In this document: one piece after another, positions 942 to 39,287 of the stretch
Layout of the letters: the number at the start of each line of letters is the position of its first letter
Position numbering within the stretch: position 1 is the stretch's first letter
DNA from: Longimicrobiales bacterium
GTDB lineage: Bacteria > Gemmatimonadota > Gemmatimonadetes > Longimicrobiales > RSA9
Direction of reading: 5' to 3'
NCBI GenBank assembly: GCA_035764935.1
Contig: DASTYK010000058.1
Location: forward strand, 1 to 39,287
DNA length: 39,287 nt
Notes under the pieces: model-generated
What the model saw: the letters and a program-made list of their open reading frames with translations, nothing else
The model's database searches: none
Told to the model about the DNA's origin: nothing
Made by a program: the position numbers and the translations under genes

Positions 942-3596
942 TCAGTCCGTCCGCAGCACCTTGACCGGATCGACGCGTAAAGCCCGCTGCACCGGGGCAA
1001 CAGTAGCGATCACGGCCACGCTGAGCACCATGGCTGCGACGAGCGTGTAGACCCTGGAGTCGGTCGCGCTCACGCCATACAGCGCCCCCTGGACAATCCG
1101 CGAGGCTGCCAACGCGCTGAGCATGCCGACGACCGTGCCGGTGAGGACGAGGACCAGGGCTTCGCCCACGACGAGCCAACGAACCTGCTTCGCCTCGGCG
1201 CCCAGGGCCAGCCGGACGCCGATCTCGCGGTAACGACGAGCTACTCCGTAAGAGAGCAGGCTGTAGATGCCGATCGCCGCGAGCAGTAACGCGACGACGG
1301 CTAGGCTCGTGATGATCACGAACAGGAACCGGGGCAGGTCCAGTGATCCCGCGTAGATGGTTGCCGCCCTGTCCAGCCGGCTGATGACCTGCGTCGGATT
1401 GATGTCATGCACCGTACGTCGCACGTCAGGCAGCACTGCTCCGGGATCTCCGCGTGCCCGGATGGCAATGCCGGCATTGACGTGCTGGAAGCGATCGAGC
1501 GGGTAGAGCACCTCGAAGTTTCCCGTGCGATCATCCGGGCCGATCAGCTTCAGGTCGGCCATGACCCCCACTACGGTCTGCCAGTCTGCTTCCGGGTCGG
1601 TCCTGAACCTCTGGCCTATCGCACTGCTCCCCGGCCAGAGATGGTGCGCGAGATCTTCGTCGATGATGACAGCACCCGATGCATCGTCTTCGCCGGGATG
1701 GAACGGACGTCCTGCAAGCAGCCGTGCCCCGGTGACCCTGAAGAAGTCCGGACCGACGTTCGTGAAGGGGAGGAATCCCTCGAGGGGACGTTTGATACCG
1801 TCATCTGTCTCGAACGTCAGGTCAAACGAGATCCCGCCATGCGGCGGCATGCCACCGGTGATCGCGACGTCATCGACGCCGGGCAGCGCTCGTATGCGCT
1901 CCGCGATTCGATTGAAGTATGCCGCGCGCGCCTCCGGCTGCGGATACTCGGAGGACGATACGGAGAGATCGAGGACGGCGAGTCGCTCGAGATCCACACC
2001 TGGATCCACGCGTGTCAGGCGGACGAAGCTCGCCATCAGCAGCGCTGCGGTGACGAGAAGCGTGACTGCGATTGCGACTTCGGACGCAACGAGCGCGCGA
2101 CGCAATCCGGCAGACGCGGTGCTGTTTACGGAGGCCCGGGGCGCGAGCCCGGTGCCCGCCTTCGATCCCGCCATCCTCGTCACGCGCATGGCCGGCAGCA
2201 GCCCGAATACCAGACCGCTCGCAAGTGCAACGACGAACGTGAACACGAGCGTACGCTGCTCGAAAGTGATGGGATGTGGTGACCAGAAGGCGATCGATGC
2301 AGGTAGGCGCGACTGCAGCAGACGCAGCGTGATGCGTCCGATCAGTGCCGCGAGCACGCCACTGCACAGGGCCAGAAGGAGCGCTTCCGTCGCGAGCTGG
2401 CGTACCAGCCGTGCGCGCGACGCACCCAGCGCAAGCCGGAGCGCGAGCTCGCGTGTACGCGCCGCCCCGCGCAGCAACAGCAGACTCACCATGTTGACGC
2501 CTGCGATCAACAGCGTCAGCGCGACGGCCGCCGCGAGCATCGTGAGGGAGCGCCGCAGCTCGATCGTGGCCAGGCGGGAATCATCGAGCTGCTGGAAGCG
2601 CCAGTCCGCCTCACTGCGAGGATCATCCTGCTGGAGGAGCGAACGAGCGAGTGTGGAGGCCCCCGCCTCCGCCGCCGCGAAATCTCCGCGCTGAATTCGT
2701 GCAACCAGCCCGACCATCCGCGCCTGCGTGCTCAGATACGCATCGTCAGCTCGGATGGGGACCCAGAAATCCGACGTCGAATACAGGGGATACTTGAAGC
2801 CGCGTGGCATCACACCGACGATCTCGCGCTGCACACCGTCGAGCTGCACGATCGTGCCGAGCACGTCGGAGCCACCGAATGCACGCTGCCAGAACTCGAA
2901 CGAAATCAGCACGACGGGAGCTGCACCCACGCGCGTATCTTCCGGCATCAGGCCGCGGCCTGGTTGCGGCAGCACGCCCAGGGTTTCCTCGAACGCATCT
3001 GTAACGGCGAGGCCTGGCAGGTCGACCGGCTCGGCACCACCGACGTACGTGGCCGTCGTGCGAGCATGCATGAACGCCGCCGTCGCAACAGCCTGATCGC
3101 TCAGCCAGCCGCGTACGATCCCGGGATCGAGGTAAGGTCGGCCGCGCTGATCCTTGCCGCTCGTCTGGTAGACTTCCAGCAGTTCCTCGGGCTGCGTGAA
3201 CGGCAGCGGCCGGAACACGAGTGCGTCAGCCACACTGAACAGCGCACTGTTCGCTCCGATGCCCAGACCAAGCGTCAGAATGACGCCGAGCGCGAAACCA
3301 CGGTTGACGGCAAGTGCCCTGGCACCGTAGCGGAGGTCCTGTCGCACCGTTCCGATGAAAGCGGTGAGTCGCTCCCGACGACGCACACCTCGATCGATAC
3401 GGCGCAGCTCCGATCGAAGCCGCGCGCGGTCGCCGAAGGCACGCCGTGCCTCGGCACGAGCCTGGGCCTCCGACATGCCGGTAGAGCGCAGCTCCTCCAC
3501 CCGCTCCTCGATGTGATGCTCGATCTCCCAGTCCACCGCGTCGTCGACTGGCGGACCCCAGAGTCGCAAATGAAAAAGGCGACGCAGCATGCTCAT
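942..3596 (-). CDS. ADOP-family MacB/FtsX-type ABC permease without its own ATPase
   Basis: About 884 residues. The N-terminal 75 residues form the soluble 'permease prefix' (WEIEHHIEERVEELRSTGMSEAQARAEARRAFGD), typical of acidobacterial/gemmatimonad duplicated orphan permeases. Then comes a transmembrane helix (about 103-125), a MacB-type periplasmic core, a three-helix FtsX domain (about 400-530), a second periplasmic domain and a second FtsX domain ending near the C-terminus (the helix starting FLFVIITSLAVVALLLAAIGIYSLLSYG and two more). ATG 3596 overlaps the PadR stop (ATGA), so the two genes are coupled; the longer open frame upstream lies inside padR and is rejected. No ATP-binding subunit is adjacent, as is usual for this family. 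Substrate is unknown; export of small molecules or extraction of lipids/lipoproteins are family-level guesses. Confidence 0.9.
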   Translation of the reverse strand: MSMLRRLFHLRLWGPPVDDAVDWEIEHHIEERVEELRSTGMSEAQARAEARRAFGDRARLRSELRRIDRGVRRRERLTAFIGTVRQDLRYGARALAVNRGFALGVILTLGLGIGANSALFSVADALVFRPLPFTQPEELLEVYQTSGKDQRGRPYLDPGIVRGWLSDQAVATAAFMHARTTATYVGGAEPVDLPGLAVTDAFEETLGVLPQPGRGLMPEDTRVGAAPVVLISFEFWQRAFGGSDVLGTIVQLDGVQREIVGVMPRGFKYPLYSTSDFWVPIRADDAYLSTQARMVGLVARIQRGDFAAAEAGASTLARSLLQQDDPRSEADWRFQQLDDSRLATIELRRSLTMLAAAVALTLLIAGVNMVSLLLLRGAARTRELALRLALGASRARLVRQLATEALLLALCSGVLAALIGRITLRLLQSRLPASIAFWSPHPITFEQRTLVFTFVVALASGLVFGLLPAMRVTRMAGSKAGTGLAPRASVNSTASAGLRRALVASEVAIAVTLLVTAALLMASFVRLTRVDPGVDLERLAVLDLSVSSSEYPQPEARAAYFNRIAERIRALPGVDDVAITGGMPPHGGISFDLTFETDDGIKRPLEGFLPFTNVGPDFFRVTGARLLAGRPFHPGEDDASGAVIIDEDLAHHLWPGSSAIGQRFRTDPEADWQTVVGVMADLKLIGPDDRTGNFEVLYPLDRFQHVNAGIAIRARGDPGAVLPDVRRTVHDINPTQVISRLDRAATIYAGSLDLPRFLFVIITSLAVVALLLAAIGIYSLLSYGVARRYREIGVRLALGAEAKQVRWLVVGEALVLVLTGTVVGMLSALAASRIVQGALYGVSATDSRVYTLVAAMVLSVAVIATVAPVQRALRVDPVKVLRTD

Positions 3597-4417: not shown

Positions 4418-6246
4418 GAAGACAGAACGGGAATCAGGGCGGCGGGGCGGTCCGGCCGACGGACACGACCGACCCCGCGTACTACCACAGGGTCGTCGAT
4501 TGCCAGTGGGCGTGTCCGGCCCACACCGACGTTCCGCAGTACATCCGTCTGATTGCGCAGGGCCGCTTCGCAGATGCCTACCTGTTGAACCGCGAGTCCA
4601 ACGTTTTCCCCGGCATCCTCGGACGCACGTGCGACCGCCCCTGCGAGCCCGCGTGCCGGCGACAGCGGGTGGACGGCGAGCCGGTCGCGATCTGCCGGCT
4701 GAAGCGGGTTGCCGCGGACCTGAAAGGCGATGTGACATCGCGACTGCCGCAGCGGGCTGAACAGAAGAACGGCAAGCGCGTCGCCTGCATCGGGGCGGGC
4801 CCTGCATCGCTCACGGTTGCGAACGACCTGCTGCCGCTCGGCTACGACGTCACGCTGTTCGAGAAGCACGACCGGCCCGGCGGTCTCATGTGGTCGAACA
4901 TCCCGCAGTTCCGGCTGCCGCCCGAGGTGCTGACCGAAGAGATCAACGCGATCCTGGACATGGGCGCGGACCTGCGGCTCAACTCGCCTGTCACCTCGAT
5001 GGAAGCGCTGCTGCGCGAGGGCTGGGACGCCGTGTTCATCGGATCGGGCGCACCGCGCGGCAAGGAGCTGGACGCGCCCGGCCGCTGGGATGACCCGAAG
5101 CACGTGCACATCGGGATCGACTGGCTGGAGTCGGTCGCATTCGGCCACCTCGACCGGATCGGCGAGCGCGTGCTCGTGATCGGTGTCGGCAACACGGCCA
5201 TGGACTGCTGTCGCACGTCGCTCCGCATCGGCGCGAAGGACGTGAAGGTGATGGCGCGGCGCCCGCGCCCCTACTTCAAGGCGTCGCCCTGGGAGCTGGC
5301 GGACGCGGAGGAAGAGGGCGTCGCGATCGTCGAGAACCATGCGCCGTCGCATTTCGTGATCGAGGACGGGCGGCTGACCGGCATGGCGTTCGACATCGTC
5401 GAGTGGTACGACGACAACGGCAGGCAGCGCTCACGCACGCTCGATCAGGTCGTCGTCCCGTGCGACGACGTGATCCTGGCGATCGGCCAGGAGCCCGCCT
5501 ACCCGTGGCTGGAGCGCGACATCGGCATCCAGTTCAATGAGTGGGATATGCCCGTTGTCGACCGGGTGACGCACCAGACGACGCTGCCCGGCGTGTTCGC
5601 GGGCGGTGACGGCGCGTGGGGCCCGGAGAACATCATCTGGGCGGTCGCCCACGGCCACCAGGCGGCGATCTCGATCCACAACCACTGCAGCGGCATCCCC
5701 GTCACCGAGCGGCCGCCGATCGGCATGAACCTGCTGAGCACCAAGATGGGGCTGCACGAGTGGAGCTACAGCAACGATTACGAGCCGGCACGGCGCGCGG
5801 CGATGAAACACGTCGCGCTGCGGCAGCGCCTCACGGGGGTCAAGGTGGAGGTCGAGCTGGGCTTCGATCTCGACCAGACGCTGCGTGAGGTCGAGCGCTG
5901 CCTCAACTGCGACATCCAGACGCACTTCACGGCTTCGGCATGCATCGAATGCGACGCCTGCATCGACATCTGCCCGATGAGCTGCCTCACCATCGTGCAC
6001 GATGCGCCCGAGCCGGAATTGCGGCTGCAGCTCACGGCCCCGGCGAACAACGTCGACCAGCCGCTCTTCGTTTCGGGGCCGCTCCAGCACACGGCACGCG
6101 TGATGGTGAAGGACGAGGACGTGTGCATCCACTGCGGGCTGTGCGCGGAACGCTGCCCGACAGCGGCGTGGGACATGATGAGATCCGAGATCCTCCTGCC
6201 GTATGCGGGCAAACCCGTCGCGGCAGGCGTGGAGGTGGGGGTATGA
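4414..6246 (+). CDS. GltD-like NAD(P)H/FAD oxidoreductase fused to C-terminal ferredoxin domain
   Basis: About 610 residues. The N-terminal segment (1-115) is the cysteine-rich Fer4_20 module of glutamate synthase small subunit/DPYD (D-C-Q-W-A-C-P-A-H-T-D-V-P and G-R-T-C-D-R-P-C-E-P-A-C). Next are an FAD-binding Rossmann motif (I-G-A-G-P-A-S-L, about 125) and a nucleotide-binding motif (V-I-G-V-G-N-T-A-M-D, about 252) with R-R following, in keeping with NADPH. The C-terminal 110 residues hold two 4Fe-4S motifs (C-I-E-C-D-A-C-I-D-I-C-P and C-I-H-C-G-L-C-A-E-R-C-P). It is coupled by 4-bp overlaps to the genes on both sides and precedes korA/korB, so it probably passes electrons between the OFOR's clusters and NAD(P)H. 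The true start is ATG 4414; the open frame continues upstream through the previous gene but has no family features there. Confidence 0.9.
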   Translation: MRRQNGNQGGGAVRPTDTTDPAYYHRVVDCQWACPAHTDVPQYIRLIAQGRFADAYLLNRESNVFPGILGRTCDRPCEPACRRQRVDGEPVAICRLKRVAADLKGDVTSRLPQRAEQKNGKRVACIGAGPASLTVANDLLPLGYDVTLFEKHDRPGGLMWSNIPQFRLPPEVLTEEINAILDMGADLRLNSPVTSMEALLREGWDAVFIGSGAPRGKELDAPGRWDDPKHVHIGIDWLESVAFGHLDRIGERVLVIGVGNTAMDCCRTSLRIGAKDVKVMARRPRPYFKASPWELADAEEEGVAIVENHAPSHFVIEDGRLTGMAFDIVEWYDDNGRQRSRTLDQVVVPCDDVILAIGQEPAYPWLERDIGIQFNEWDMPVVDRVTHQTTLPGVFAGGDGAWGPENIIWAVAHGHQAAISIHNHCSGIPVTERPPIGMNLLSTKMGLHEWSYSNDYEPARRAAMKHVALRQRLTGVKVEVELGFDLDQTLREVERCLNCDIQTHFTASACIECDACIDICPMSCLTIVHDAPEPELRLQLTAPANNVDQPLFVSGPLQHTARVMVKDEDVCIHCGLCAERCPTAAWDMMRSEILLPYAGKPVAAGVEVGV

Positions 6247-8096
6247 CACGCCCGACGCAGGACCGCACGAACCGTTTCGCGTTCAAGATCGCGACCGTCA
6301 ACGGCACGGGCTCCGCGAGTGCCAACACACTGCTGCGCCAGGCGATCTTCCGCATGGGGATCCCGGTCTCCGGCAAGAACCTGTTCCCTTCCAACATCCA
6401 GGGGCTGCCCACCTGGTACGAGATCCGGGTCAACGCCGACGGCCACGTCGCGCGCACGCCGCGCTTCGACCTGATGGTCGCGATGAACCCGGCATCCTAC
6501 GCTCGCGACATCGCGGAGGTCGTGTCCGGCGGGTGGGTTCTGTACGACTCGACGCGGCCGCTCGATCGCTCGCTGCTGCGCGACGACGTGACGTTCCTCG
6601 GCATCCCGTTCGCCGCGCTGTGCGCGGAAAAGTTCGCCGGCGTGCGCGAGCGCATCCTCATGAAGAACATCATGTACGTGGGTGCCCTCACCGCGCTGCT
6701 GGGGGTGGAGCTGGACGTGGTACGCGCACTGCTGAGCGAGACATACGGCCGCAAGCAGGCGCTGCTCGATTCCAACTACACCGCGATCGACGTCGGCTAC
6801 GAGCACGCGCGTGCGCACCTCGCCTGTCCGCTGCCGATCCGGCTGGAGCGAATGGATGCGCTTGCGGACCACATCCTGGTCGATGGCAACACGGCCGCGG
6901 CGCTCGGCTGTCTCTTCGCCGGCGCGACGGTGGCGGCGTGGTATCCGATCACCCCGTCGACGTCCATGATCGAGGCGTTCTCCAGCTTCGCGGCGAAGTA
7001 CCGCAAGGATCCCGCGAGCGGGAAGCGGCGCGTCGCGATCCTGCAGGCCGAGGACGAGCTGGCCGCGGCGGGCATGGTGCTCGGCGCGACGTGGAACGGC
7101 GCCCGCGCGTTCACTGCCACGAGCGGCCCCGGCATCTCGCTGATGAGCGAGTTCATCGGGCTCGCGTACTACGCGGAGATCCCGGGCGTGTTCTTCGACG
7201 TTCAGCGCGTCGGCCCCTCTACCGGAATGCCGACGCGCACGCAGCAGGGCGACCTGCTCAGCATCGTGTACGCGTCGCACGGCGACACGAAACACATCGC
7301 GCTCGTCCCTGCGGACCCGCACGAGTGCTTCACGCATGCGGTCGCCGCGTTCGACCTGGCCGAGCGGTTCCAGACGCCGGTGTTCGTGGTCAGCGACCTG
7401 GACATCGGCATGAACGACTGGGTGGTGCCGCGCCTCCGGTGGGACGACACCTACCGCCCGGACCGTGGCAAGGTGCTGGACGCCGCGGCACTCGAGCGCG
7501 TCGAGAAGTTCTCGCGCTACCTCGATTCCGACGGCGACGGCATTCCGTACCGCACGCTGCCCGGCCAGAGCGCGAAAGGCGCGTTCTTCACCCGCGGCTC
7601 CGGTCACGACCGATTCGGCCGCTACACGGAGGATCCACCCGCCTACGCGGACGTGATGGAACGGCTCGCGCGCAAGATCGAGAACGCGGCCGCGCACGTC
7701 CCCGCATCGGAGCACATCCCTGCGGCCGCCCCGGCCACGGTCGGCCTGATCGCGATCGGCAGCTCGCGGCGCGCGGTCATCGAGGCGCAGGCGCGCCTGG
7801 CGGAGCTGGGCATTCACGCCGACTTCCTGCGGCCGTGCGGCTTCCCGTTCGCACCCGATGTCGCAGGGTTCATCGCGGCGCACGACATCACGTTCGTCGT
7901 GGATCAGAACCGCGACGCACAGCTCCACCACCTGCTGATCATGGAGGCGGGCGCGCCGCGCGAGAAGCTGCACAGCATCACCCATTTCGGCGGCTACCCG
8001 CTGCCGGCTGATGCCGTGGTCGACGGAGTACTGGCTGCTGTCCAGGCCGCAGCGCCCGTGGAACCGCGGCGCCGGATCGTCGAGGTGCACTCATGA
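6243..8096 (+). CDS. korA: 2-oxoacid:ferredoxin oxidoreductase, fused gamma-alpha subunit
   Basis: About 617 residues. The first 190 residues are the gamma (POR_gamma) domain (G-T-G-S-A-S-A-N-T-L-L-R-Q-A, G-L-P-T-W-Y-E-I-R), followed by the pyrimidine-binding alpha domain with Y-P-I-T-P-S-T-S-M-I-E, the E-D-E-L-A-A motif, T-S-G-P-G-I-S-L-M and G-P-S-T-G-M-P-T-R-T-Q-Q-G-D. A central R-G-S-G-H-D-R-F-G-R-Y-T-E-D-P segment and a C-terminal transketolase-like domain follow. The gamma-alpha order is that of KorA-type two-subunit enzymes, which oxidise 2-oxoglutarate (or other 2-oxoacids) with CoA to acyl-CoA, CO2 and reduced ferredoxin. Overlaps the upstream flavoprotein stop and the korB start (both ATGA). 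Whether the substrate is 2-oxoglutarate or a branched/pyruvate-type acid cannot be decided by eye. Confidence 0.9.
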   Translation: MTRPTQDRTNRFAFKIATVNGTGSASANTLLRQAIFRMGIPVSGKNLFPSNIQGLPTWYEIRVNADGHVARTPRFDLMVAMNPASYARDIAEVVSGGWVLYDSTRPLDRSLLRDDVTFLGIPFAALCAEKFAGVRERILMKNIMYVGALTALLGVELDVVRALLSETYGRKQALLDSNYTAIDVGYEHARAHLACPLPIRLERMDALADHILVDGNTAAALGCLFAGATVAAWYPITPSTSMIEAFSSFAAKYRKDPASGKRRVAILQAEDELAAAGMVLGATWNGARAFTATSGPGISLMSEFIGLAYYAEIPGVFFDVQRVGPSTGMPTRTQQGDLLSIVYASHGDTKHIALVPADPHECFTHAVAAFDLAERFQTPVFVVSDLDIGMNDWVVPRLRWDDTYRPDRGKVLDAAALERVEKFSRYLDSDGDGIPYRTLPGQSAKGAFFTRGSGHDRFGRYTEDPPAYADVMERLARKIENAAAHVPASEHIPAAAPATVGLIAIGSSRRAVIEAQARLAELGIHADFLRPCGFPFAPDVAGFIAAHDITFVVDQNRDAQLHHLLIMEAGAPREKLHSITHFGGYPLPADAVVDGVLAAVQAAAPVEPRRRIVEVHS

Positions 8097-9148
8097 CATA
8101 CATCGCGAAGCCGCGTGTTCACCACCCCTCGCTGCCGAAGAACGCCCTCGGCCTGACGCGGCGCGACTACGAGGGCTCCATGTCGACGCTGTGCGCGGGG
8201 TGCGGCCACGACTCCGTGACCGCCGCGATCATCGAGGCGTTCTGGCGGCTCGAGATCCCGCCACACCGCGTGGCAAAGCTGAGCGGCATCGGCTGCTCCG
8301 CCAAGACGCCGACCTACTTCCTGGGCGGCGCCCACGGCTTCAACGCCGTGCACGGCCGCATGCCCGCGATCGCGTCCGGCGCCGCGGCCGCGAACCGCGA
8401 GCTCACCTACATCGGCGTTTCCGGTGACGGGGACTCGCTCTCCATCGGGCTCGGCCAGCTCTGCCACGCGATCCGCCGCAACGTGGACATGCTGTACGTC
8501 CTGGAGAACAACGGGGTGTACGGCTTGACCAAGGGGCAGTTCAGCGCGTCGGCAGAAATCGGATCGAAGACGAAGAGAGGCGAGGCGAACCGCCAGGCCC
8601 CCATCGACCCCGTGCTGCTCGCGATATCCCTCGGCGCGACTTTCGTTGCACGCTCCTTCTCGGGCGACAAGGCGCAGCTCGTGCCGCTGCTCGAGGCGGG
8701 GATCGCGCACAAGGGCTTTGCGCTGATCGACGTGATCTCGCCCTGCGTCACTTTCAACGACCACGAAGGCTCGACGCGCAGCTACCAGGCCACGCGCGAG
8801 CGCGACGTGGAGATCGTGAGTGCTGATTTCGTTCCGCCCGCGGAGGAGATCACGTCCAGCTACACCATGGGCGACGTCGCACACGTCACGATGCACGACG
8901 GCAGCATGCTGCGCTTCCGGCGCGTGGCCGATGGCTACGACCCCACCGACCGCGACGCGGCCTGGGCATACATCCAGGCGCGGCAGGCGGCCGGTGAAGT
9001 GCCGACAGGGCTGCTGTTCGTGGACACGAGTGTACCGGACATGCACGACCTGCTCGAGACGGTGGAGGCACCGCTGAACGTGCTGCCGTTCGAGGAGCTG
9101 TGTCCCGGCGCGGCGGTGCTCGACTCGATCCAGGCCCGCTGGGTGTAG
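8093..9148 (+). CDS. korB: 2-oxoacid:ferredoxin oxidoreductase, beta (TPP-binding) subunit
   Basis: A 351-residue KorB-type subunit. It shows the cluster-binding cysteines (C-A-G-C-G-H-D-S near residue 35, S-G-I-G-C-S-A-K near 67, S-P-C-V-T-F-N near 220) and the thiamine diphosphate motif G-D-G-D-S ... E-N-N-G-V-Y-G-L-T-K-G-Q. These are the parts that bind TPP-Mg and one 4Fe-4S cluster in the catalytic site between alpha and beta subunits. The start overlaps the korA stop by ATGA. It is the last gene of the four-gene unit; a strong hairpin with a T-rich tail follows. About 50 residues at the C-terminus (MHDLLETVEAPLNVLPFEELCPGAAVLDSIQARWV) are typical of the family. Confidence 0.92.
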   Translation: MTYIAKPRVHHPSLPKNALGLTRRDYEGSMSTLCAGCGHDSVTAAIIEAFWRLEIPPHRVAKLSGIGCSAKTPTYFLGGAHGFNAVHGRMPAIASGAAAANRELTYIGVSGDGDSLSIGLGQLCHAIRRNVDMLYVLENNGVYGLTKGQFSASAEIGSKTKRGEANRQAPIDPVLLAISLGATFVARSFSGDKAQLVPLLEAGIAHKGFALIDVISPCVTFNDHEGSTRSYQATRERDVEIVSADFVPPAEEITSSYTMGDVAHVTMHDGSMLRFRRVADGYDPTDRDAAWAYIQARQAAGEVPTGLLFVDTSVPDMHDLLETVEAPLNVLPFEELCPGAAVLDSIQARWV

Positions 9149-37531: not shown

Positions 37532-38047
37532 GCCACCAACGCGAAGACCCGAGTCAACACCATGATCCGCATCAGTCCCGTGCGCCTGATCACCGAGGAC
37601 GGTGAGCAGCACGGCATCGTGCCGCTCGACCAGGCGCAGGAGGCCGCCGAAGCCGCGGGACTCGACCTCGTCGAGGTCGCTCCCAACGCACGCCCTCCCG
37701 TCGTCCGCGTCATGGACTGGGGCAAGTTCCAGTTCGAGCAGCAGAAGCGGGCGCGCGAATCCAGGAAGAAACAGCACACCGTCGACGTGAAGGAAGTGAA
37801 GCTGCGCCCGCGCACCGACGAGCACGACCTCGAGTTCAAGCTGCGCAATGCGCGCCGCTTCCTCGCCAGGGGAATGACCGTGAAGGTGACCGTACGCTTC
37901 CGCGGGCCGGAGCTGCGTCGCCCCGAGACGGGCCAGCAGGTGCTCGACACGGTGGCCGAGGAGCTCGCCGAGGTCGCGCACGTGGAAAGCCGCTCGCGCG
38001 TGCTGGAAGGCCGCCAGCTCACGATGATGCTGGCCCCGACCGGGTGA
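37529..38047 (+). CDS. infC: Translation initiation factor IF-3, with predicted AUC start codon
   Basis: 172 residues. N-domain: K-T-R-V-N-T-M-I-R-I-S-P-V-R-L-I...G-I-V-P-L-D-Q-A-Q-E-A-A-E-A-A-G-L-D-L-V-E-V-A-P-N-A-R-P-P-V-V-R-V-M-D-W-G-K-F; C-domain: V-K-E-V-K-L-R-P-R-T-D-E-H-D-L-E-F-K-L-R-N-A-R-R-F-L and R-F-R-G-P-E-L. IF-3 binds the 30S subunit and checks initiator tRNA and start codon. The first in-frame ATG (37562) would cut into the conserved R-V-N-x-x-I-R motif and has no Shine-Dalgarno. GGAGG at 37519-37523 lies five bases before an ATC (37529), giving an N-terminus I/M-A-T-N-A-K-T-R-V-N. No rpmI or rplT follows, unlike the usual infC-rpmI-rplT order. Confidence 0.93.
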   Translation: MATNAKTRVNTMIRISPVRLITEDGEQHGIVPLDQAQEAAEAAGLDLVEVAPNARPPVVRVMDWGKFQFEQQKRARESRKKQHTVDVKEVKLRPRTDEHDLEFKLRNARRFLARGMTVKVTVRFRGPELRRPETGQQVLDTVAEELAEVAHVESRSRVLEGRQLTMMLAPTG

Positions 38048-38095: not shown

Positions 38096-38415
38096 ACAGC
38101 GCCCGCACCGGCAGACGACGGGTTCCGAATCCCGCGCCCGGTGGCTCAGCCAACGTTGCACGACACGGGGGGTCTGACGTACGCGAGCAACGTTGCCTGT
38201 GATAATACAGGGCAACGTTGCTCGCGTGGCGGTGTCACAGGATCAAAGCAACTTTACCTGTGATTATCGAAGGTAATGTTGCTCGCGTCGCGGTGTCGCA
38301 GGACCAGAGCAACGTTGCCTGAGCGCTGCCCCGCTGCACCGCCGCCCCGCGACCCACCGACGCCGCTGCGCCGCGCATGACCCGAACCGCCCGGCCGCGA
38401 TCCGCTGCGCCGCTC
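38096..38415. other. Intergenic region carrying tandem hairpin repeats
   Basis: About 320 bp between the infC hairpin and the convergent propeller gene. It holds the 61-bp repeat block (38186-38323) and an isolated CAACGTTG at about 38151-38158. The bases after 38325 are plain GC-rich sequence. No gene is seen. Confidence 0.6.
38186..38323. repeat. 61-bp tandem hairpin repeats (two full units and a partial third)
   Basis: Units start at 38186, 38247 and 38308, exactly 61 bp apart. Each full unit opens with a stem-loop: in unit 1 the ten-base palindrome GCAACGTTGC occurs at both ends of the hairpin (38187-38196 and 38212-38221) around a TGTGATAAT loop; in unit 2 the arms are GCAACTTTACCT and AGGTAATGTTGC around TGTGATTATCG. 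The second half of each unit (GCTCGCGTxGCGGTGTCxCAGGAxCA) is nearly constant. Unit 3 stops after about 16 bases. Several changes between units are paired across the stem. Confidence 0.9.
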
Positions 38416-39287
38416 TCAGTTCTCGATCGTCCGTACCTCCACCCGGTTCGCATTGAACAGCGGCACGAGCACGCGGTTGCGACGTGAGTCGTAGCCGATA
38501 TCGGCCGGCGACTGGAGACTGTCCGCGAACACGCTGACGTTGCCGCCCGTGTCGATGCGGTACACGCTGCTGCTCTCCCAGCTCGATACGAACAGCTCAC
38601 CTGCACGGCTGCGCACGATGCCGTCGAGCTGTCCGCCCTGAAGCGTCGCGATGGTGTCGGGCGCGCTTCCGTCGAGAGGCACGCGCATGACGACGGCACT
38701 GCCGAAGGGCACCACGACGATTGCGTCGTCCACGACCACGATCCCGTTGGGGCTGCTGAGCGCGTCGCCGCTGGCGACCGGCGTCGCACCGTTCGACTCC
38801 ATGCGCAGGATGGCCGCCCTGCCGTTCGGCTGGAAGCTGGCGTCGACGCCCATGTCGGTCACGTAGAGCGTACCGTCGGCTGCTGTTGCGAGATCGTTCA
38901 GGAAGGTCGCGCCCTCGACGCCGCGGGCACCGAGAGGTGCACCGGTCGTGCGATGAAACGCGCGCACGGTGTCGATGTCCGTCACCCACAAGGTGTCGCC
39001 GTGCACGGCCATGCCCTTGGGGGCGTGCAGCGTGACTTCCTCGGTGGCCCCATCGATCCATCTGGGCGCATCGACGGTCCCGTCCGGCCGCACGCGCGTG
39101 ATGAACCCGTTGCCGTCCTTCTCGGTCGGTGCCCCGTTGATGTTGGAGACGTAGTACATGTCCGCCTGCTCGTCCCAGAGCACCGACTCCGGCGTGGCAA
39201 GGACGCCTTCCCCGATCGCGAAATCGGTCCGCGCGCCCACGATGCCGGCGGTGTCCGCGGACGCCGCTGTACCGGCGCCGGTGTCCG
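38416..39287 (-). CDS. SMP-30/NHL-like beta-propeller protein (5' end beyond window)
   Basis: At least 290 residues; the frame is open to the window edge and the visible GTG at 39240 is probably internal, since the preceding Asp/Thr/Ala-rich stretch looks like the linker after a signal peptide or lipobox. The body is a six-bladed propeller: A-T-P-E-S-V-L-W-D-E-Q-A-D-M-Y-Y-V-S-N-I-N-G, L-H-A-P-K-G-M-A-V-H-G-D-T-L-W-V-T-D-I-D-T-V, F-L-N-D-L-A-T-A-A-D-G-T-L-Y-V-T-D-M-G, S-S-P-N-G-I-V-V-V-D-D-A-I-V-V-V-P-F-G, G-Q-L-D-G-I-V, S-P-A-D-I-G-Y-D-S-R-R-N-R-V-L-V-P. The repeated L-x-x-P-x-G/D-I pattern is that of SMP-30/gluconolactonase-type folds, though catalytic activity cannot be judged. Probably exported. 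Confidence 0.82.
   Translation of the reverse strand, partial: DTGAGTAASADTAGIVGARTDFAIGEGVLATPESVLWDEQADMYYVSNINGAPTEKDGNGFITRVRPDGTVDAPRWIDGATEEVTLHAPKGMAVHGDTLWVTDIDTVRAFHRTTGAPLGARGVEGATFLNDLATAADGTLYVTDMGVDASFQPNGRAAILRMESNGATPVASGDALSSPNGIVVVDDAIVVVPFGSAVVMRVPLDGSAPDTIATLQGGQLDGIVRSRAGELFVSSWESSSVYRIDTGGNVSVFADSLQSPADIGYDSRRNRVLVPLFNANRVEVRTIEN

Follow-up and report, generated by a model that had tools for sequence, protein, structure and literature searches.

Intergenic arrays of a 61-bp inverted-site repeat in a Longimicrobiales bacterium

A tandem repeat lies directly downstream of a putative infC gene in a Longimicrobiales bacterium (GCA_035764935.1), and its inverted motifs resemble the arms of hairpins. 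This raises the question of whether the locus is read as a folded RNA, as a mobile palindrome or as duplex DNA bound by a protein. The window analyzed here is the whole 39,287-nt stretch of contig DASTYK010000058.1. The original prediction described 61-bp hairpin units and took one paired base change between two of them as covariation, suggesting that selection acts on a folded RNA, on cruciform DNA or on a protein-bound palindrome.

The array downstream of infC

The proposed 61-bp period at 38186, 38247 and 38308 was borne out (TRF score 188), and the three exact copies of GCAACGTTGC that had been stated are present (Table 1). The array, however, begins earlier than was seen at first: instead of two units and a stub, a covariance model places three full 61-bp units at 38142–38326. 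The first of them was overlooked because its palindromes, starting at 38150 and 38187, lie 37 rather than 36 bp apart. The natural unit is offset by about half a period from the one originally drawn and runs ATCnnAG, palindrome, 26 bp, palindrome, CTnnGAT. The array occupies the gap between infC and a convergent gene, ~100 bp from either.

Across the family described below, the unit can be written as ATCnnAG-[GC]CAACGTTGC-26 bp-GCAACGTTG[CG]-CTnnGAT, with a single A or T separating units and a linker of the pattern CTnnGATWATCnnAG. It consists of two inverted copies of a directional site of ~27 bp, ATCnnAG-S-CAAY-GTTGC-n-CGC-R-T; read from the outside inward, both halves of the unit fit one directional consensus, ATCnnAGSCAAYGTTGCnCGCRT. 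Site centers are alternately 36 and 25 bp apart, and the pairs recur every 61 bp.

Table 1. Coordinates of the window array, its flanking genes and other repeats of the genome (window positions unless a locus is named).
Feature	Position	Strand	Basis or remark
infC (putative; translation initiation factor IF-3), pointing at the array from the left	37562–38047	+	ORF, coding score
Unit 1	38142–38204	.	1-bp insertion; covariance model (G000:C58:38142-38204), 43.5 bits, E 4e-9
Site 1 core CCAACGTTGC, forward half-site	38150–38159	+	Sequence
Site 2 core GCAACGTTGC, inverted half-site	38187–38196	-	Exact match
Linker of units 1/2, 15 bp, CTGTGATAATACAGG, quasi-palindromic, GATWATC-type center	38197–38211	.	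Sequence
Unit 2	38204–38265	.	Covariance model, 50 bits, E 3.9e-11; TRF period 61
Site 3 core GCAACGTTGC	38212–38221	+	Exact match
Site 4 core, degenerate GCAACTTTAC	38248–38257	-	Sequence
Linker of units 2/3, 15 bp, CTGTGATTATCGAAG	38258–38272	.	Family linker pattern
Unit 3	38265–38326	.	Covariance model, 54.1 bits, E 2.1e-12
Site 5 core, degenerate GTAATGTTGC	38273–38282	+	Sequence
Site 6 core GCAACGTTGC	38309–38318	-	Exact match
Convergent gene to the right, open at the end of the window	38416–39285	-	ORF, coding score
Unrelated tandem repeat near a 61-bp array	L087 5759–5942
Unrelated tandem repeat near a 61-bp array	L097 3983–4129
Unrelated tandem repeat near a 61-bp array	L099 4772–4921
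Unrelated tandem repeat near a 61-bp array	L101 4402–4582
Integron attC site, 125 bp	L181 (C194) 5579–5703
Integron attC site, 125 bp	L181 (C194) 6577–6701
Integron attC site, 125 bp	L181 (C194) 7405–7529
Integron attC site, 125 bp	L181 (C194) 8099–8223

A genome-wide family of arrays

The assembly (3.83 Mb in 195 contigs, of high G+C, 96% complete) contains 61 copies of GCAACGTTGC against 9 of a reversed control, an abundance far beyond chance. BLAST and the covariance model gave strong matches at 20 contig places, every one of them in an array of 2–5 units, and found no solo units in the genome. Contigs C74 and C104 end in common flanking sequence, and the arrays at these two ends are probably one and the same, hence 19 distinct arrays. 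Further copies, whose existence had been left to be checked, are thus present: the 19 intergenic arrays have a period of 61 bp (rarely ±1), and the window array is one of them.

The two copies at the C74 and C104 ends (L014 and L020) differ at several G/T and C/A positions, which suggests that the assembly breaks, or that strains vary, within the array. The outer ends of arrays differ systematically from the inner junctions, often reading GATCnAAG and CTTnGATC (e.g., L060, L055 and L063) where the junctions read GATWATC. Over ~425 kb of the genome, TRF revealed no second, sequence-unrelated family of the same unit length. Unrelated intergenic tandem repeats with periods of 39–76 bp lie within ~200 bp of several 61-bp arrays (Table 1), and the intergenic DNA of this genome seems rich in short tandem repeats.

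Among the other genomes of the class (393) and of the order (153), none gave a convincing covariance-model match. Matches in genomes G010 and G272 are isolated, the former lying inside an apparent response-regulator coding sequence, and 40 relatives carry 0–7 copies of the palindrome each. Thirteen bacterial-contig and five viral matches, which would have indicated a wider presence, turned out to be isolated core pairs 26 bp apart rather than 61-bp arrays. The unit had no matches in IMG/VR, plasmid and phage sequences, 645 kb from three relatives of the same family held no arrays of like type with another sequence, and no description of the core sequence or of the 61-bp repeat was found in the literature. 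By these searches, the array family is species-specific.

Between arrays, identity reaches 0.89 in the palindromes, 0.69 in the linker halves and 0.60 in the inner arms, and the 12-bp unit center is 0.36 identical, where base composition alone predicts 0.33; inside an array, identity is 0.68 for the center and 83% for the arms. Since the center is alike within but not between arrays, units duplicate locally; since it stands at composition level between arrays, these have been apart long enough for complete drift of the center. Retention of the cores next to drifted centers speaks for a functional site, or for one that a mobilizing enzyme once recognized. That enzyme could have been lost since, or could be encoded in unassembled sequence.

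Such an enzyme belongs to a reading of the family as a non-autonomous mobile palindromic element of the REP, REPIN or MITE type: a transposase would have spread it, most copies would be inert today, and arrays would form during or after insertion. The arrays are dispersed, intergenic and species-specific, which fits this origin, as do their often inverted outer ends and the BIME-like alternation of inverted sites. However, the REP-associated tyrosine transposase that was to be looked for was not found: no Y1_Tnp (PF01797) match was obtained in the 96%-complete genome with a search that was positive in control genomes. Neither solo units nor another element with these ends were found, and target-site duplications are not obvious by eye. 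Recent copying has left no sign, as units of different arrays are at most 84% identical and unit order is not conserved from one array to the next. We regard a mobile origin as possible but doubtful.

Base pairing and polarity of the sites

The double change from TTGCC/GGCAA to TTACC/GGTAA, read originally as covariation, does exist in the window (sites 4 and 5), but no family-wide compensation accompanies it. The same palindrome pair also carries an uncompensated change (GCAACTTTAC versus GTAATGTTGC), and, judged across the family, the double change is a single event among many uncompensated ones. A 20-pair stem was tested over the 59 units of the 19 arrays against 500 shuffles of partners. 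Standard pairs made up a smaller share than in the shuffles, double changes were fewer and the covariation score was lower; all five measures of pairing and covariation fell below the shuffles, which is the opposite of what selection for a folded RNA or for a cruciform predicts. When one unit per array was used, a unit's own halves formed 18.3 Watson–Crick pairs versus 20.1 ± 0.5 for halves swapped between arrays, and the linker-centered frame behaved similarly (16.6 versus 17.6 ± 0.4). The compensatory base changes that characterize structured RNA families are therefore not found across the 59 units, and no selection for base pairing is seen. This whole-family test illustrates how misleading a single, seemingly covarying pair at one locus can be.

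The units appear, on the contrary, to avoid perfect hairpins. This avoidance could come from selection against unstable perfect palindromes or from assembly bias; the pairing deficit could be partly due to such a bias, given that contigs C74 and C104 break inside one array. A global unit polarity with G–U bias on one strand was also considered and rejected, as it gave no coherent signal (p 0.5).

Substitutions within the palindrome are polarized. Its outer C is altered in 15 of the 19 arrays and its inner G in 2; likewise, 16 arrays differ at the outermost G, against a single one at the innermost C. Of 16 double changes within a palindrome, not one is symmetric. As far as the aligned units indicate, this polarity marks an oriented duplex site and not a stem: the core is palindromic in look, yet it is evidently not treated so by evolution. 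From the half-site polarity it follows that each array lines up oriented sites in alternating direction. Among the possibilities raised at the outset, these substitution patterns support the protein-bound palindrome.

A transcribed tandem hairpin RNA, serving as a 3′-UTR stabilizer, a terminator or an RNA sponge, draws on the strong predicted folding of the window array, which far exceeds that of shuffled sequences for either strand (z −6.1 and −8.3), and on RNA roles of this kind proposed for 52-nt repeats (PMC8161180). Gene ends lie beside most arrays. With strict gene calls, array gaps (n = 13) comprise 4 convergent, 7 codirectional and 2 divergent ones, compared with 6, 35 and 20 among background gaps (n = 61); the convergent excess is suggestive (p 0.07), and REPs have been described with a similar gap preference (PMC3733652). 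Against an RNA stand the pairing and compensatory changes, both below shuffled partners, and the changes permitting G–U, which do not fall consistently on one strand. No Rfam family reached its gathering score, with weak sub-threshold miRNA-type chance matches only; the window array has no T-tract terminator or terminator-like site, and at least two arrays sit between divergent genes. We consider this explanation improbable. A 3′-end processing structure specific to infC, as first suggested, is not supported, as the arrays have many different, unrelated neighbors (dnaK, ftsK, polA and tuf, judged by eye, are examples) and in some cases lie in divergent gaps.

Related repeat classes and a proposed function

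Neutral tandem duplication of a chance palindrome would suit a genome generally rich in short intergenic tandem repeats, but a common core at 19 unrelated loci with drifted centers requires both common descent and constraint, and the dispersed copies and the excess of palindromes (61 versus 9) already contradict it, which makes it very unlikely.

It is hardly credible that the units are integron attC-like recombination sites without cassettes: the genome does encode a true integron integrase (TIGR02249, 415.9 bits versus a cut-off of 265) and the units are quasi-palindromes of ~60 bp ending in AAC/GTT, but the resident attC is 125 bp long (TCTAACG...GCGTTAGA) and unrelated in sequence, its similarity to the unit being not above shuffles; GCAACGTTGC is missing from the integron contig; the unit ends AGSCAAC depart from RYYYAAC, and with it from the RYYYAAC...GTTRRRY core rule; and no cassettes lie between units.

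The chromosomal integron itself, on contig C194 (L181, 3700–8223), looks complete, with its integrase followed by at least four attC sites (Table 1). One cassette (~6770–7395) resembles a putative HigBA-type toxin–antitoxin pair and another a putative nucleotidyltransferase. Just upstream of the integrase gene (3428–3543), a 58-bp sequence with inverted GGCGGGCAACGAGTTCATTGACCTCCC-type cores occurs twice in tandem; it resembles the 61-bp family in style but differs in sequence.

A CRISPR array was considered and rejected as well. The regular period, palindromic parts and variable middle are alike, but the "spacers" are not unique: they are conserved within arrays (middle 68% and arms 83% identical) and, in the arms, between arrays, and the units are spread as groups of 2–5 over ~19 loci.

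The originally proposed REP/BIME-like element holds in part. Like BIME-2 (tandem, alternately oriented REP units), the family is built of palindromic units that have a direction, alternate in orientation and are set at two spacings in turn; the 61-bp arrays are extragenic, contain several units each, are present in many genome copies and lie in few divergent gaps. The family differs in having a core of 10 bp rather than a 20–40 bp hairpin, in its ~120 sites and in the lack of a RAYT. REPs have an imperfect palindrome of 20–40 bp with an adjacent GTAG or CGTC tag (PMC3733652), and neither tag occurs in the family consensus ATCnnAGSCAAYGTTGCnCGC. REP and BIME palindromes are preserved through complementary mutations (PMC2817692), of which the family shows none. 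Since tag, RAYT and complementary mutations are all lacking, we do not file the family as a BIME.

Subirana and Messeguer described bacterial tandem repeats of constant length and variable sequence, with units of 52 and 20–21 nt (PMC8161180). The family shares with them a fixed unit length, many arrays per genome (here 19 with period 61), species-specific sequence, variable regions combined with a few short conserved motifs that often occur with their reverse in the same unit, a non-coding length and turnover of array length. It differs in its unit of 61 bp, in lying apparently outside the Firmicutes pattern reported for the 52-nt repeats, in its shorter arrays (2–5 units versus mostly 4–10) and in forming just one family, whose members clearly share an inverted site. 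In behavior, the arrays are closest to these constant-length, species-specific repeats, while their architecture is BIME-2-like; the best reading of their class is a 61-bp variant of constant-length, variable-sequence bacterial tandem repeats.

As to function, we hold with even confidence that the ~19 species-specific extragenic arrays are BIME-like sets of inverted, putatively protein-binding duplex sites, changed by local duplication. A sequence-specific protein would recognize the sites in double-stranded form and would need them inverted and close together; it is perhaps a dimer, a polymerizing nucleoid-type protein or, as for BIMEs, a topoisomerase. BIMEs bind gyrase and IHF (PMC2817692), and a polymerizing nucleoid protein has been proposed as binder of constant-length repeats (PMC8161180). 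Each array may thus act as a BIME-like nucleoprotein docking or chromosome-organization element, whose unit number would be altered through local tandem duplication. Several points count against such protein sites: the conserved cores and the pairing deficit could have the other causes given above, the arrays form strong RNA hairpins on paper, and the spacings of 36, 25 and 61 bp are not whole helical turns, which would put the sites on different sides of the helix.

More tentatively, and with considerable doubt, we speculate about a lineage-specific chromosomal nucleoprotein system in which a dedicated protein polymerizes or bridges on the inverted-site arrays at ~19 places. Such a system would organize the chromosome as a counterpart of matS/SlmA-type site sets, though with its sites in tandem, and selection would favor the sites while disfavoring hairpins.

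Fixed-length tandem repeats of bacteria, such as the enigmatic ones known from Bacillus that the family resembles, are an unexplained class, to which this family adds a third unit length in an apparently different lineage. Its anatomy offers a concrete hypothesis, namely that such repeats may be oriented inverted duplex binding sites and not RNA hairpins, and it supplies an exact probe sequence for seeking a binding protein.
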